This document shows positions 9,328 through 14,999 of a stretch of DNA of 64,000 bases, in pieces. Under the pieces are notes generated by a model. That model saw only the letters and a list, made by a program, of their open reading frames with translations. It made no database searches and was not told where the DNA came from. A program made the translations under genes and the position numbers. The DNA lies in NCBI RefSeq assembly GCF_023746535.1, contig NZ_CP098747.1, positions 1,122,364 to 1,186,363 of the forward strand. Direction: 5' to 3'. Positions within the stretch are counted from its first letter, which is position 1; every line of letters starts with the position of its first letter. This DNA comes from Sneathiella marina. Its GTDB lineage: Bacteria; Pseudomonadota; Alphaproteobacteria; Sneathiellales; Sneathiellaceae.

Positions 9328-10137
9328 GGCATTGTCAGAGGAAAATGATCAGACACCAAAAAAGGAATGAGGCGTTGTTTTTCAAGCTACGAGTTGACGC
9401 CACTCGGCAAGAGCAATTTCACGTTTGAGCTCGAAGTTTTTACGGTTATTGAGATGGCGTTCGTGATTAAAGTGGTTTTGGATTGAGGAATGGATGGAGG
9501 CAAATTTCTGTAGTGATTGTAAGCTTCTGAATTTGATCATCGCTCGTTCTCGTCGTCGGAACGGTTGATGAGAATTCTCGGCTCGATTATTTAGCCATCG
9601 CCCAGTTTCCTGACGGGACTGATTGCCGATTGCTTTCATCGCAGCGCCATATGAGCGGAGTTTATCCGATATGATCACTTTTGGACTGCCATATCGCTTC
9701 ATGGCTTTCTTCAGAAACTTCAAGGCAGCCTTACGATCCCGCCTTTTGGTAACAAAGGCCACCAAAACCTCTCCTTCGTGATCGACTGCCCTCCAGAGAT
9801 AATGGATTTCGCCATTGATCCGCACGAAAACTTCATCCAGATGCCATCTCCATTGTGGTGAGACACGCATTGAAGCTGATCTTTTCTTTCTGATTTTTGC
9901 GGAAAATATAGGACCGAACCGGTTCCACCAGGCGCGTACTGTTTCATAACTCACATCAATACCCCGTTCATGCAGGAGATCTTCAACCTGACGCAAAGAC
10001 AATGGATATCGGACATACATCATCACAGCTAGACGAATGATCTCAGGTGAAGTTTTGAAATAACGGAAGGGGTTTTTCATGAGATGACGGTAAATTCCGT
10101 ATCAAATAACCACAAGCACTTTTCCTCTGACAATGTC
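9328..10137 (-). mobile_element. IS6-family insertion sequence, type B copy 1
   Basis: 810-bp element with left end GGCATTGTCAGAGGAAAATG (9328-9347) and right end ending CTTTTCCTCTGACAATGTC at 10137. These terminal repeats share only the outer GGCATTGTCA with type A. It contains one intact transposase on the minus strand. It sits inside a fragment of a type A-related element. No matching 8-bp flanks are visible. Confidence 0.9.
9382..10080 (-). CDS. IS6-family DDE transposase (type B1, intact)
   Basis: A 232-residue transposase that catalyses replicative or conservative IS6-type transposition. An N-terminal helix-turn-helix region (about 20-55) precedes the DDE core: Asp82 in WHLDE, Asp139 in SDKL and Glu168 in RAENSH, all present. 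Length is normal for the family and no frameshift or stop is seen. Its relative at 14244 is clearly similar but not identical, so the two copies are not a very recent duplication. Confidence 0.93.
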   Translation of the reverse strand: MKNPFRYFKTSPEIIRLAVMMYVRYPLSLRQVEDLLHERGIDVSYETVRAWWNRFGPIFSAKIRKKRSASMRVSPQWRWHLDEVFVRINGEIHYLWRAVDHEGEVLVAFVTKRRDRKAALKFLKKAMKRYGSPKVIISDKLRSYGAAMKAIGNQSRQETGRWLNNRAENSHQPFRRRERAMIKFRSLQSLQKFASIHSSIQNHFNHERHLNNRKNFELKREIALAEWRQLVA

Positions 10138-10468
10138 GGATCAGGCGCTATCGGCAGAAAGTAAAAGAATAAAGGGTCAGGCCTTTGATGAAGGCCGCGC
10201 TTTAAACAATGCGGAAATCGAGCGCCGCAAATCAATTGCGGCAACGCGCATGGAGTTGGCGGATGCGCTTGAAGTCCTGGGTATAAGCACAATTGATGCT
10301 TTGGAAAATTCAGACAACATTGACATTCTGATTAAGGAAATTGATGCCACCAACCAACAGCTTGAAGATGATCTCGCTCGTTTGAAAATCATGGTGGAAT
10401 ATGCTGAAATTGCGGCGAAAGTCGCCGAAGGTTTGGCGACAGCCGCAACGAAGATAGCGAGTCTATGA
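10133..10468 (+). CDS. Unknown coiled-coil protein with its start inside an IS end
   Basis: A 111-residue reading frame, rich in Ala, Glu, Asp and Leu, predicted to be largely helical and coiled-coil (residues 20-60 and 70-110). No signal peptide or membrane segment. The ATG at 10133 is part of the IS B1 terminal repeat (CAATGTC), so the native 5' end was probably removed and a new start created; no good ribosome site precedes it. The codons inside look real, and the frame leads into the envelope operon beginning at 11045, although an IS3 relic lies between. I do not recognise the family. It may be a truncated member of that operon. Confidence 0.5.
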   Translation: MSDQALSAESKRIKGQAFDEGRALNNAEIERRKSIAATRMELADALEVLGISTIDALENSDNIDILIKEIDATNQQLEDDLARLKIMVEYAEIAAKVAEGLATAATKIASL

Positions 10469-10533
10469 CAGAGTATGGGGTATCTGTAGACGCGACCCTT
10501 AAAAATGGCTTTGAATGAACTCCTGGTGGTTCA

Positions 10534-10785
10534 AAGCCGTTGTAGTTTCGAAAGTATGGCATTGAGGCCCGCAATTTCCAGCTGTTGGCTTTTTACCTCA
10601 TCCGTTGTGGTGCCCCGCGCCGAATTCCCTGCCAGGAGTTTCTCGTTAGCCTCGAGAAAGTCCTTCGACTATTTATAGTAAATGCCCTGGGGTAGGCCTT
10701 CCTTGCGGCAGAGTTCCGCAATACTTTCTTCACCTCGCAGGCCGTCCAGCACAATGAAGGTCTCCTCTTCGGCAGAATAGGGCGT
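10534..10785 (-). pseudogene. IS3-family transposase OrfA relic
   Basis: On the minus strand the codons read YSAEEETFIVLDGLRGEESI and then AELCRKEGLPQGIYYK, the helix-turn-helix signature of IS3-family OrfA, followed by an in-frame TAG where the family has Trp. The frame then continues through SKDFLEANEKLLAG to a TGA. The rest of the element (OrfB and both ends) is absent. It lies upstream of the envelope operon and is not functional. Confidence 0.8.
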
Positions 10786-11044
10786 CGTGTTTAATGATGA
10801 ATGTCTGTAACAAGGCGTTCTGAAGCTGAATGTCGGGCCTTGAATTGGTTTCATCTTCGCCTTCTTAAAGGCTACGATAAAAAATAAACTCTCTCCTAAG
10901 CCTTTCCGTAATCAAGGTCCATAAGCGTTGACGATTTATAGTACTATTACGGTTTTCACATCTCGTTGGCCGTGTGCCGCCATTATGTGCTAATATAAGC
11001 TGTCTTCTTTATTGGCGATGTAATTCAGCAGTAAGGACGGGAAA

Positions 11045-11584
11045 ATGGCGGCACAGGATGCATCAATTATTGATCAGGCATTGGAGCTTTTTGACGAGGC
11101 GACGACCGTTTTTGCGAAATTTGGGATCGATATAAGCCCATTTGCCTCGCAGATTATTATCACCGCGATCTTGCTGGTCCTGCTGTTCCTTTTCCGGAAA
11201 ACACTTTGGCCACTCACCTTGGCATCTATTGTAGGAATTGTTCCTCTGATCGTTGTAGCGGGTATAGCAATCAGCTGGATTTATCAGCTGGTTCTTCCAC
11301 TTCCAGATCATGTTTTCGGGCGAGTCGCGGACGGGAATCTGTCAGATTTATCCGTGGAACTTGTGGATTTTCATGACCGGGTCCTGCCTCCGGGAAGCGT
11401 TCGCGTCGATACTGTTTCCGGAGACTTCGCCATCCGGTATACTCCCTCCTTCGGCGACCGGCCGCGAGCGGTTGTTATTCATCGCCCAGGATGCGCGCCC
11501 TATCGCCAGACTATCTCCCGTCCCCAAGTCGCGGAGCGGGCGGTCATCGACATACGTTTTAGCTGCACGGAGGAGACATCATGA
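11045..11584 (+). CDS. Two-pass membrane protein with a C-terminal CNA-B/carboxypeptidase-regulatory-like domain
   Basis: A 179-residue protein of unknown function. Two adjacent membrane segments (about 33-52 and 56-82) precede a soluble C-terminal domain (about 92-175) with alternating strands (GNLSDLSVELVDF, SVRVDTVSGDFAIRYTP). This resembles the beta-sandwich carboxypeptidase-D regulatory or CNA-B fold. Two passes would place the domain on the same side as the N-terminus; the side is not certain. The ATG follows GGACGGGAAA. Its TGA overlaps the ATG of the next gene by 4 bases. First complete gene of an envelope operon flanked by two IS6 copies. Confidence 0.6.
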   Translation: MAAQDASIIDQALELFDEATTVFAKFGIDISPFASQIIITAILLVLLFLFRKTLWPLTLASIVGIVPLIVVAGIAISWIYQLVLPLPDHVFGRVADGNLSDLSVELVDFHDRVLPPGSVRVDTVSGDFAIRYTPSFGDRPRAVVIHRPGCAPYRQTISRPQVAERAVIDIRFSCTEETS

Positions 11585-12621
11585 ACAACTGGCTTTATGC
11601 GGGATTGTTCTGTCTTTTCCTCCTGGCGCCATTCCCGGTTGCCGAAGCCTCAACTCTTGAAGGGATAGTTTTGGATTCAAAATCCGGCCAGCCTGTGCAG
11701 GGCGTCACTATCCGCGTCAATGCCAGCGGTCAGGAATTGGAGCTTCTGCATCCGACCGGCGCCGATGGATCCTTTACCATTCGCCTGCCCGAGCTATTCA
11801 GCGACGATCAGCTAGACACCTGGTCATTGGCATTGACCTTTTCCGCACCCAACTATGGGCCGCGCACGCAGGTACGCCGCAGCCAGACCCGAGGCGTTTT
11901 CGAATTTCCGAGGATGAGTATATTGCTAGAGCCGACATCGGGTATTTGGAATCTTCCTGCCGGCCTGAGGCAACAGTTGCAAGCCCTGAAAAGCACAGAC
12001 GGCAATGCTCTTTTTGTTGCTCCCTATATTATTTCCGAAGAGGTCAAGCAACGTCTTCCCGCCAATTTTGCAAAAATTTTGAATTTCAATATCCGGCGCG
12101 GGATTTCAACCCACCTTCAAAGCCTTGACCTGGAAAAAATTCCAGAAGATGTCAGCATCCTGGCCTTGCCGCTTGAACTGGAGCAAAGTAATGCTGCCCA
12201 ACTTCGTGTCATCGGTGCTGAACTGAATGCATTGGCCTTGGTTGGAGGGCTTGGCTCCATCGGTCAGGATACCGGTGGCACTCCGGTAACTGAGCTGTCA
12301 ACCGAGTTTATTATAATCCCCGAGCTCACCGGTTTCAATCCCGGCACAATCTATATCGATGATCAACTCATTGGCATCCCTCTTAACCCGACCACCCTGT
12401 ACAAGGGGATGGACGAGCTTTGGGGTCGCAATACAGTGTTGGCAATAAGTGCTTTGGAAACCAAGCGGGGCCTGAGTAACAATGACAAGGACAAGCTAAT
12501 GCTAGCCCGCAGCTATCTCGTTGCAGAAAGGGCGGAAATTGGCGGCGATAACACTGTTCTGCTGCGACAAATCAATACACTAATCGCCTATATTGATGAA
12601 AATCTTGCGCGATTGAATTAG
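11581..12621 (+). CDS. Exported protein with CarboxypepD_reg-like domain and CsgG/TolB-N-like region
   Basis: A 346-residue exported protein. Signal peptide residues 1-23 (ending VAEAS), then a beta-sandwich starting LEGIVLDSKSGQPVQGVTIR, which is the CarboxypepD_reg pattern, to about residue 110. The middle (about 130-240) alternates strands and helices and includes LRVIGAELNALALVGGLGSI. This looks like the helix-strand turn of CsgG/FlgT/TolB-N domains; that is inference from pattern. The C-terminus (about 285-346) is helical. It is translationally coupled to the upstream membrane protein and 11 bases from the downstream SH3 gene. Function unknown. Confidence 0.6.
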   Translation: MNNWLYAGLFCLFLLAPFPVAEASTLEGIVLDSKSGQPVQGVTIRVNASGQELELLHPTGADGSFTIRLPELFSDDQLDTWSLALTFSAPNYGPRTQVRRSQTRGVFEFPRMSILLEPTSGIWNLPAGLRQQLQALKSTDGNALFVAPYIISEEVKQRLPANFAKILNFNIRRGISTHLQSLDLEKIPEDVSILALPLELEQSNAAQLRVIGAELNALALVGGLGSIGQDTGGTPVTELSTEFIIIPELTGFNPGTIYIDDQLIGIPLNPTTLYKGMDELWGRNTVLAISALETKRGLSNNDKDKLMLARSYLVAERAEIGGDNTVLLRQINTLIAYIDENLARLN

Positions 12622-12632
12622 GGAGGCAGCAT

Positions 12633-14063
12633 ATGAAAAACTGGTTTCAGATAGGTATAGTTTCCCTTTTGGTCGCTGTTTCATATCCTGTTTCGGCCGG
12701 GGAGGTGATTGGTTTTGTAAATAGCACCAAAAGCAGCCATATGGTCATTCCCAATACAAAATTGAGGGCATTGATTGCTGAATTTTTGGATCCCGCCGCG
12801 ACCGGTATTGGTCAGTCCTTGGGCTATCTGGTCTGGCGAGAGACCCTGACGGCGATAAGTGATCAGGCAAAGGCGGGTGTTATCCTCGCCCGGGCACCGG
12901 AAGGTAAAAACCTTACTGAACTGATAGGAGACCGCTACCATCTTGCTGCAACAGAGATCGCGAATTTCCAAAAAGCGGCCATGATACTTTGGGGCGCCGT
13001 CATTGAAAACCCGGATGGGGAACTGGTTATCAATACCCATCTTACCCTGCTGCCAACTGAATTAGCCTCTGGTGATCTTATTTTACGCTTTACAGCCGGG
13101 GACAATTCAAACGCCGGGCTGCAAACTGCCATTTCGCGCAGTAAGTTCAATTTTGCAACGGTGACAAGGAGCCGCAAAGATCTATTCGACAGGCGTCTTG
13201 TCTCCCGGCGTGTCGCTAATCTTCGTGCCGCTCCTTCACGGGAGGCAGAAAAAATTACACAGATTCCTCCAGGGACCGTGATACAGTCTTTAGATATGCA
13301 GGGTGCCTGGTTCAAAGTTGTTCTAAGAGACGGACGAGAGGCGTATATTGAAAATAGCCTCGTAGATGTTCCACCCCGGCAGATTGACGTCTCAAAGACG
13401 GAAATTAATGTAAGGGTCGGTCCAGGAACGGACCACCAGGTAATTGCCACGAGAGATGTCATCGGAACCTTCGAAGTGTTGAACATGACATATCGGGAAG
13501 GACAGGGTCTTTGGTATGAGGTTGATCTGGAAGGAGAACCGGTCTGGATATACGCTGCCCTCACCAGACCTCGTTATTCGCTACCGGCTGTTCATTTTCT
13601 CGCTGGGTTGTATCGCTACTACGCCAGCCGATTTAAGGACGCGTCAAGCGAGTTCACACAATTTCTAACGTCGGGTGTCGAAGGTCGGAATGTCAATCTT
13701 GCAGCCGGTTATCAGCTTTTAGGTGCGAGCCAGGTGATGGGAAAGCAGGCTTATGAATTGGACGAGAATATCGTCAATATCTTCTCAAAGGCGGTCGAAT
13801 TAACACCCTATGATCCTGCGGCCTATAACTTGCGGGCACTGGCCAATATTGCAGTGAACAACAACCTTGATCTTGCGATTAAGGATTTAAAGGTGAGTGC
13901 AGAACTCGACAGTATGAGCGACACAGCGGCCCTGCTGGTGAATGACCTCAATAATGTTGTAAATCAGCGAACGCCCGGCAATCGATTCTTGCTTCAAAAA
14001 CTAAGGCCGGACAGCGATCAGAAATTGGTTATCAACAATATTGCTAAATCGTTTTCTCGCTAG
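12633..14063 (+). CDS. Exported protein with tandem SH3b domains and TPR-like repeats
   Basis: A 476-residue exported protein with signal peptide 1-22 (VSAGEV). The N-terminal domain (about 25-165) ends in FQKAAMILWGAVIENPDGEL, the layout of TolB-N/FlgT-type domains. Two bacterial SH3 modules follow: about 188-248 (RRVANLRAAPSREAEKITQI) and about 252-315 (INVRVGPGTDHQVIATRDV), the type that binds peptidoglycan or peptide ligands. The C-terminal part (about 325-455) is helical and TPR-like (AVELTPYDPAAYNLRALANI). The ATG follows GGGAGG. Last gene of the operon. No enzyme motif is seen; a scaffold or sensor in the periplasm is likely. Precise function unknown. Confidence 0.7.
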   Translation: MKNWFQIGIVSLLVAVSYPVSAGEVIGFVNSTKSSHMVIPNTKLRALIAEFLDPAATGIGQSLGYLVWRETLTAISDQAKAGVILARAPEGKNLTELIGDRYHLAATEIANFQKAAMILWGAVIENPDGELVINTHLTLLPTELASGDLILRFTAGDNSNAGLQTAISRSKFNFATVTRSRKDLFDRRLVSRRVANLRAAPSREAEKITQIPPGTVIQSLDMQGAWFKVVLRDGREAYIENSLVDVPPRQIDVSKTEINVRVGPGTDHQVIATRDVIGTFEVLNMTYREGQGLWYEVDLEGEPVWIYAALTRPRYSLPAVHFLAGLYRYYASRFKDASSEFTQFLTSGVEGRNVNLAAGYQLLGASQVMGKQAYELDENIVNIFSKAVELTPYDPAAYNLRALANIAVNNNLDLAIKDLKVSAELDSMSDTAALLVNDLNNVVNQRTPGNRFLLQKLRPDSDQKLVINNIAKSFSR

Positions 14064-14075
14064 TTGCCGAGCGAT

Positions 14076-14152
14076 AGGGTTGTCACTTTAACTAAGGCGA
14101 TTTGGAAGCGGGCATTGTCATACTAAATTTCGAGGCATTGTCACATTAACTT
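14076..14152. repeat. Three stacked IS6 type A terminal repeats
   Basis: Left-end-type repeats start at 14076 (AGGGTTGTCACTTTAACTA, diverged), 14111 (GGCATTGTCATACTAAATT, diverged) and 14134 (GGCATTGTCACATTAACTT, perfect). None has a matching right end or transposase. They show repeated insertion and deletion at this edge, and IS copy B2 starts 40 bases further on. Confidence 0.75.
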
Positions 14153-14191
14153 GCTAAAAGCGCAGAGAACCGTCAGCGGAATAGTTTAAAC

Positions 14192-14999
14192 GGCATTGTC
14201 AGAGGAAAGTGACTAGGCGCAATAAAGAATAAAGGTGGTATCTTTATACGGCGAGCTGACGCCATTCTATAAGGGCTGCTTCACATTTTAACTGGAAGTT
14301 TTTGCGGCTGTGGAGATGACGTTCGTGATTGAAATGATTATGGACTGACGAGTGAATTGAGATAAATTTCTGTAGCGATTTCGTGCTTCGAAATTTGATC
14401 ATCGCTCGTTCTCGTCGTCGGAACAGTTGATGAGAGTTCTCGGCTCGATTGTTGAGCCAACGTCCAGTTTCTTGACGGGCCTCGTTACTAATCACTTTCA
14501 TCGCAGCTCCATAAGAACAAAGCTTATCCGTCACGATTACTTTCGGATTGCCATATTTCTTCATGGCTTTTTTCAAAAACTTAAGTGCAGCCTTGCGATC
14601 CCGCCTCTTGGTGACAAATGCCTCCAAAACTTCACCCTCATGATCGACGGCTCTCCAGAGATAATGGACTTCACCATTGATCCGAACGAAAACTTCATCC
14701 AGATGCCATCTCCACTGAGGTGAGCTATGGAAGGAAACGGAGCGGGCTTTTCTGATTTCTGCCGCAAACACTGGCCCGAAACGATTCCACCATGTCCGGA
14801 CTGTTTCATAGCTCACGTTTATACCGCGCTCATGCAGGAGATCTTCGATTTGACGCAATGAAAGTGGATATCGAACATACATCAAGACGGCCAGACGGAT
14901 GATTTCAGGTGATGTTTTGTAATAACGGAATGGATTTTTCATGCGCTGACCGTAAATCCAGCCTCAACACGGCTCAAGTGATTTTCCTCTGACAATGCC
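14192..14999 (-). mobile_element. IS6-family insertion sequence, type B copy 2
   Basis: 808-bp element with left end GGCATTGTCAGAGGAAAGTG (14192-14211) and right end GATTTTCCTCTGACAATGCC ending at 14999. It has the same orientation as B1. It lies within the tail of a type A left-end fragment. Flanking bases do not match each other or the outer flank of B1, so no target duplication supports a recent composite transposon. Confidence 0.92.
14244..14942 (-). CDS. IS6-family DDE transposase (type B2, intact)
   Basis: A 232-residue transposase, same layout as the B1 enzyme with numerous substitutions (for example RTWWNRFGPVFAAEIRKARS against RAWWNRFGPIFSAKIRKKRS). The catalytic blocks WHLDE, TDKL and RAENSH are intact. 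No stop or frameshift. The pair could in principle mobilise the DNA between them, or drive deletion by recombination because the copies are direct repeats. Confidence 0.93.
   Translation of the reverse strand: MKNPFRYYKTSPEIIRLAVLMYVRYPLSLRQIEDLLHERGINVSYETVRTWWNRFGPVFAAEIRKARSVSFHSSPQWRWHLDEVFVRINGEVHYLWRAVDHEGEVLEAFVTKRRDRKAALKFLKKAMKKYGNPKVIVTDKLCSYGAAMKVISNEARQETGRWLNNRAENSHQLFRRRERAMIKFRSTKSLQKFISIHSSVHNHFNHERHLHSRKNFQLKCEAALIEWRQLAV

Follow-up and report, generated by a model that had tools for sequence, protein, structure and literature searches.

A rare three-gene operon that probably encodes an undescribed cell-envelope complex, with an optional TIR module in one clade

Introduction

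Between two insertion sequences in the genome of Sneathiella marina stand three closely spaced genes that a first-pass annotation had called an unrecognised cell-envelope operon. Do these genes belong together, and if so, what could they do for the cell? We studied them in a window of 64,000 nucleotides (the whole stretch of DNA that was analysed) and in related genomes. From the sequences, the three-gene set probably encodes a cell-envelope complex that is so far undescribed and could be connected to an alarm inside the cell.

The locus

The features of the locus are as follows (window positions).

9382..10080, minus strand: upstream IS6-family transposase (DDE_Tnp_IS240, E 1.3e-42), flanking and outside the system
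10133..10468, plus strand: coiled-coil-like ORF of 111 aa, start codon within an IS terminal repeat, excluded
11045..11584, plus strand: OrfA, 179 aa, predicted two-TM inner-membrane hairpin, TIR-less form
11581..12621, plus strand: OrfB, 346 aa, signal-peptide-like start, CarboxypepD_reg domain, alpha/beta middle, helical C-terminus
12633..14063, plus strand: OrfC, 476 aa, signal-peptide-like start, FlgO-like N-domain, two SH3b domains, TPR region
14244..14942, minus strand: second IS6-family transposase (DDE_Tnp_IS240), a different element, flanking and outside the system

OrfA, OrfB and OrfC (11045-14063) are intact and tightly coupled, with a 4-base ATGA overlap at the first junction and an 11-base gap at the second, and IS6-family elements flank them on both sides. 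Open reading frames and spacing are just as first annotated, and both transposases (DDE_Tnp_IS240) are intact. Since the two IS6 copies are only 80% identical at the DNA level, they are different elements. An IS6 composite transposon needs two near-identical copies bounding its cargo, and we rejected this arrangement on the same figure. Searches of plasmids and of viruses returned no copy of the operon. OrfC is single-copy in the window genome. An Rfam scan of the locus gave no match, and a promoter and terminator scan found no more signals than in shuffled sequence.

Two further traces of insertion lie close by. A 61-aa ORF upstream of OrfA (10669-10854, minus strand) looks by eye like a remnant of the OrfA of an IS3-type element, with no match in Pfam. 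IS-end-like repeats occur again at 14080-14200, and together with the 61-aa ORF they suggest an insertion hot spot.

Is there a fourth gene? The first-pass annotation placed a truncated coiled-coil gene in front of the operon and proposed looking for a fourth gene upstream in intact loci. The 111-aa ORF in question starts inside the IS terminal repeat, has no relative that we could find (a plasmid search included), and no coiled-coil-like ORF was seen beside the operons of other genomes. We therefore rejected it as a member of the system. The search upstream of the other loci found differing neighbours, none of them conserved. The conserved set is three genes; a fourth was not found.

Conservation of the gene set

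The first relative, from a scan of GTDB genomes, was a metagenome-assembled genome of the Gammaproteobacteria (L002) in which the whole set is present and ordered as in the window. Profile searches added five more genomes from the order to which this genome belongs, and a fuller search of that order gave 6 of 210. The same gene order is found in seven genomes of two classes (the window genome and six gammaproteobacterial genomes of one order), and in the six gammaproteobacterial operons the gene starts mostly overlap. Because all three window proteins align end to end with the proteins of the relatives, in the same order, the gene set goes beyond chance. Concatenated identity between lineages is 27-42%, except for two pairs (L059/L062, 52%; L060/L061, 97%); evolutionary inference is limited by there being only seven loci, two of which are nearly identical. 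The earlier idea of a co-conserved, unrecognised envelope operon held up when co-occurrence was checked. The three-gene set is a real conserved operon, inherited together in rare, distantly related bacteria.

How rare is indicated by the searches around both finds. There were no further full-length copies in samples of the class (369 genomes) and phylum (399) of the first relative, or of the window's own class (289). Matches to OrfA and to OrfC fell in exactly the same six genomes of the one order (204 and 210 genomes searched), a figure that is inflated by the adjacency of the genes. The OrfA domain alone matched the same six genomes in the order search (n = 204) and L002 alone in a class search (210 genomes). 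No fusion of this domain to other effectors was seen in the 204 genomes of the order or the 210 of the class.

The operon is also absent from 95 sampled relatives of the window genome, 24 of which belong to the same genus. This absence and the IS6 elements on both sides would fit a stranded, decaying passenger that was brought in by IS elements and has no current function in the window genome. Against this, all three ORFs are full length compared with their relatives (roughly 30-40% identity), stops and frameshifts are missing, and the junctions are intact. We regard this explanation as very unlikely.

Domains of OrfB and OrfC

The exported nature of OrfB and OrfC, claimed at first pass, agrees with the signal-peptide-like starts that are seen on every OrfB and OrfC across the loci; both are predicted to leave the cytoplasm. 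The CarboxypepD_reg domain claimed for OrfB (about residues 25-97) is likewise supported: the Pfam match (E 1.3e-6) lies just below the curated cut-off of 32.3 bits, and the best PDB fold matches are transthyretin-like and carboxypeptidase D domains (Foldseek E 8.7e-5), so that OrfB is assigned to this family through its fold. Its C-terminus is helical, with a conserved LWGRNTVLAI-type motif around W281.

In OrfC, the two SH3b domains and the TPR-like repeats are where they had been suspected. The SH3b pair (about 194-312) matches SH3_3 in two stretches with E 8.7e-19 (67.9 bits against a Pfam cut-off of 27), and TPRs occupy about 317-445. The N-terminal domain (about 40-140) has no match in Pfam. 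A profile of 11 sequences found as its best PDB match an FlgO-domain protein over the full domain, with a weak E-value of 0.013. FlgT and CsgG are members of the wider fold group to which FlgO belongs. The first-pass annotation had seen a CsgG/FlgT/TolB-N pattern in both exported proteins; for OrfC this is modestly borne out by the FlgO match, for OrfB profile comparison gives no support. A domain common to OrfB and OrfC was rejected on the same comparison. With no more than two usable sequences, structure prediction gave a poor model for OrfC (pLDDT 41) and a modest one for OrfB (56); in these models only the transthyretin-like and TPR parts can be interpreted.

An OrfC-like protein with an FlgO-like N-domain and an SH3-like stretch is encoded in another genome of the order that holds the six operons (L055, L090:5403-6746, minus strand). 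No recognised partner gene accompanies it before the contig ends.

Topology of OrfA

Hydropathy places two transmembrane helices in the window OrfA, at about residues 32-50 and 58-76, in line with the two-pass membrane protein originally described. The CNA-B-like label that went with it found no match in Pfam. From hydropathy and flanking charges, this short OrfA is predicted to have both ends outside (in L002 another stretch, adjoining the first helix, is flagged as a borderline third). The C-terminal domain is thus predicted to be periplasmic, and every OrfA carries in it two cysteines exactly 24 residues apart (C150 and C174 in the window), as expected of a periplasmic disulfide.

By this predicted topology, the cytoplasmic part of the window OrfA is a short loop only. 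A self-contained trans-membrane sensor is therefore less likely here than a pure scaffold or a sensor that depends on a partner. Of the "periplasmic sensor or assembly scaffold" proposed at first pass, either half still fits, with trans-membrane signalling less likely for the window form.

A TIR module in one clade

The relatives show something that the first-pass annotation missed and that is visible only in them: the membrane protein can also carry a TIR domain, predicted to lie in the cytoplasm. In L058, L060 and L061, OrfA has about 340 aa and begins with a TIR_2 domain and an extra transmembrane helix, followed by the part that is common to the window. The Pfam match to TIR_2 has an E-value of 2e-24 in L058 and L060. 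Glu73 aligns with the glutamate that is conserved in TIR domains of known structure from bacteria and plants (AbTIR/PdTIR-type structures). With a TIR domain and an aligned catalytic glutamate, the long OrfA can be assigned, as far as its sequence goes, to the TIR NADase superfamily. Hydropathy and flanking charges predict three transmembrane helices for it, with the TIR inside and the C-terminus outside. The window OrfA begins after this module and does not qualify for the superfamily, and a search of the whole window genome found no separate TIR_2 protein.

In a concatenated tree, the operons with a TIR form one clade with 100% support; three of the six gammaproteobacterial operons, and four of all seven, are TIR-less. 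When the tree is rooted by the sister gene pair described below, supports are near 50%, and gain and loss of the TIR are both compatible with it.

Possible function

We tentatively prefer a reading that we consider possible rather than probable: OrfA, OrfB and OrfC would form an inner-membrane-anchored periplasmic scaffold, to which the TIR clade adds an output fired by clustering. The two-helix hairpin of OrfA would sit in the inner membrane, with its C-domain in the periplasm and probably disulfide-bonded. The exported OrfB and OrfC would dock on it. OrfC would probably touch the cell wall through its SH3b pair and partners through its TPRs, and oligomerise through its FlgO-like domain. In the TIR clade, periplasmic assembly would cluster OrfA and so bring the cytoplasmic TIRs together, which might switch on NAD+ cleavage. 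The window form would be the scaffold without the TIR output. Several points count against this reading: having SH3b domains does not necessarily mean binding to the cell wall, the match to FlgO is weak, and most of the operons (four of seven) have no TIR.

One could also argue that the operon is a defence or cell-suicide system triggered at the envelope. OrfB and OrfC would then sense damage such as phage entry or an attack on the wall, and the TIR would deplete NAD+, leading to death or arrest; in the window this output would have been lost or never gained. The TIR_2 domain with its conserved glutamate, linked across the membrane to exported partners in one clade, speaks for this, as do the sparse, patchy distribution of the operon and a second small TIR ORF beside one locus (L058). 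A comparable layout is found in Zorya, whose activity against phages depends on a periplasmic domain that binds peptidoglycan (PMC11890865). However, PADLOC found no defence genes around the TIR forms, apart from an HDOD gene that weakly matched Cas3-HD, our searches of plasmids and viruses returned no copies, the majority of operons are TIR-less, and TIR_2 is absent from the entire window genome. We consider defence somewhat unlikely.

The scaffold and the alarm can be joined in a more far-reaching proposal, which we hold to be doubtful. The operon would encode the central part of an outside-in receptor, so far undescribed and laid out like a Toll receptor, in which the periplasmic FlgO-like/SH3b/TPR assembly clusters OrfA upon envelope damage and the optional TIR then destroys NAD+. 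The window would then hold a TIR-less form that is ancestral, regulatory or without output. The bacterial TIR systems that we met in our search (Thoeris, CBASS TIR-STING and short-Argonaute) answer to intracellular cues. A membrane-spanning TIR protein inherited together with two exported ones would amount to a TIR pathway that runs from the outside in, and the operons that naturally lack a TIR offer a ready comparison for separating scaffold from output.

Relation to known systems

The modules of the operon are of known kinds, and the set that they form we did not find described. Neither the PADLOC, Pfam and NCBIfam collections nor open-access papers gave a description of it or a matching system, as the first-pass annotation had supposed.

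Compared with FlgO-type flagellar outer-ring proteins, OrfC is alike in its N-domain, which aligns with the solved FlgO-domain protein (E 0.013), but it differs by the added SH3b and TPR regions, by having no lipobox, and by the company of OrfA and OrfB instead of flagellar genes.

Also related to the operon is an undescribed gene pair in four gammaproteobacterial loci (L004, L007, L017 and L054) that encodes a two-TM membrane protein and an exported FlgO-like/TPR protein, neither with a Pfam or NCBIfam family. Along most of its length, the second gene shows homology to OrfC (hhalign 99%, E 2.5e-18), and the first likewise starts with a two-TM hairpin. The pair differs in that no SH3b, no OrfB and no TIR were seen, and no homology between its first gene and OrfA or OrfB could be detected. 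The operon thus joins several proteins without a family model in one set, with this pair as a sister two-gene family. In L007 and L017 the pair adjoins a KefB-like antiporter-type gene.

With Zorya (ZorAB) the likeness is one of functional style only: both could be membrane complexes in which a periplasmic, wall-contacting part controls a cytoplasmic effector (PMC11890865). The operon differs in that it has no match to the ZorA, B, C, D or E families and no motor-type proteins. Zorya is recognised by ZorA and ZorB with ZorC and ZorD or with ZorE, and PADLOC matches none of the window proteins and, in the relatives, only the TIR part.

The TIR effectors of Thoeris and of CBASS TIR-STING belong to the same superfamily as the OrfA of the TIR clade, with the catalytic glutamate aligned. 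TIRs of this type are activated by assembly (PMC9402430), and in other systems bringing TIR domains close together suffices to switch them on (PMC7414095, PMC9402430). These systems differ from the operon, which has no ThsA, cyclase or STING and carries its TIR, missing in the window, on a membrane-spanning protein whose partners are exported. Thoeris combines ThsB with ThsA; there was a weak ThsB match over the TIR stretch and no ThsA-like gene among the scanned neighbours. CBASS TIR-STING is recognised by a cyclase gene together with a STING domain on the TIR protein. In the TIR-OrfA, a transmembrane segment and a periplasmic-type domain make up the C-terminal part, with no Pfam STING match, and no cyclase gene was found among the neighbours scanned with PADLOC.

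Neighbouring genes in the relatives

Neighbours differ from locus to locus.

L002: mobB-like remnant, mod genes
L059: leuS and an EAL-HDOD gene (12501-13499)
L060 and L061: HDOD gene (L060:8643-9518)
L058: GGDEF-EAL gene (11264-13336)

Cyclic-di-GMP or HDOD genes adjoin the operon in three lineages, on differing sides, which may be due to chance as such genes are common.

These neighbours bear on one more explanation, in which the operon would sense for, or regulate, an envelope machine whose genes lie elsewhere (a flagellar, secretion or wall-synthesis machine, for instance), with OrfC as its FlgO/FlgT-like accessory. The FlgO-like domain of OrfC and the c-di-GMP or HDOD genes speak for a link to such a machine. 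But the neighbours vary between loci, none of them is a conserved machine gene, and HDOD and EAL genes are frequent in genomes of this kind. We find this explanation unlikely.

Two other genes beside the TIR forms deserve mention. In L058, a small second TIR_2 ORF of 113 aa (L058:7156-7497, plus strand, E 1.5e-17) precedes the TIR-OrfA by 94 bases and resembles a TIR protein that is short or truncated. In L060, a gene with an eCIS core domain (L060:13851-14477, plus strand, E 3e-31) lies divergently upstream of the TIR operon and probably encodes a contractile-injection cargo protein.
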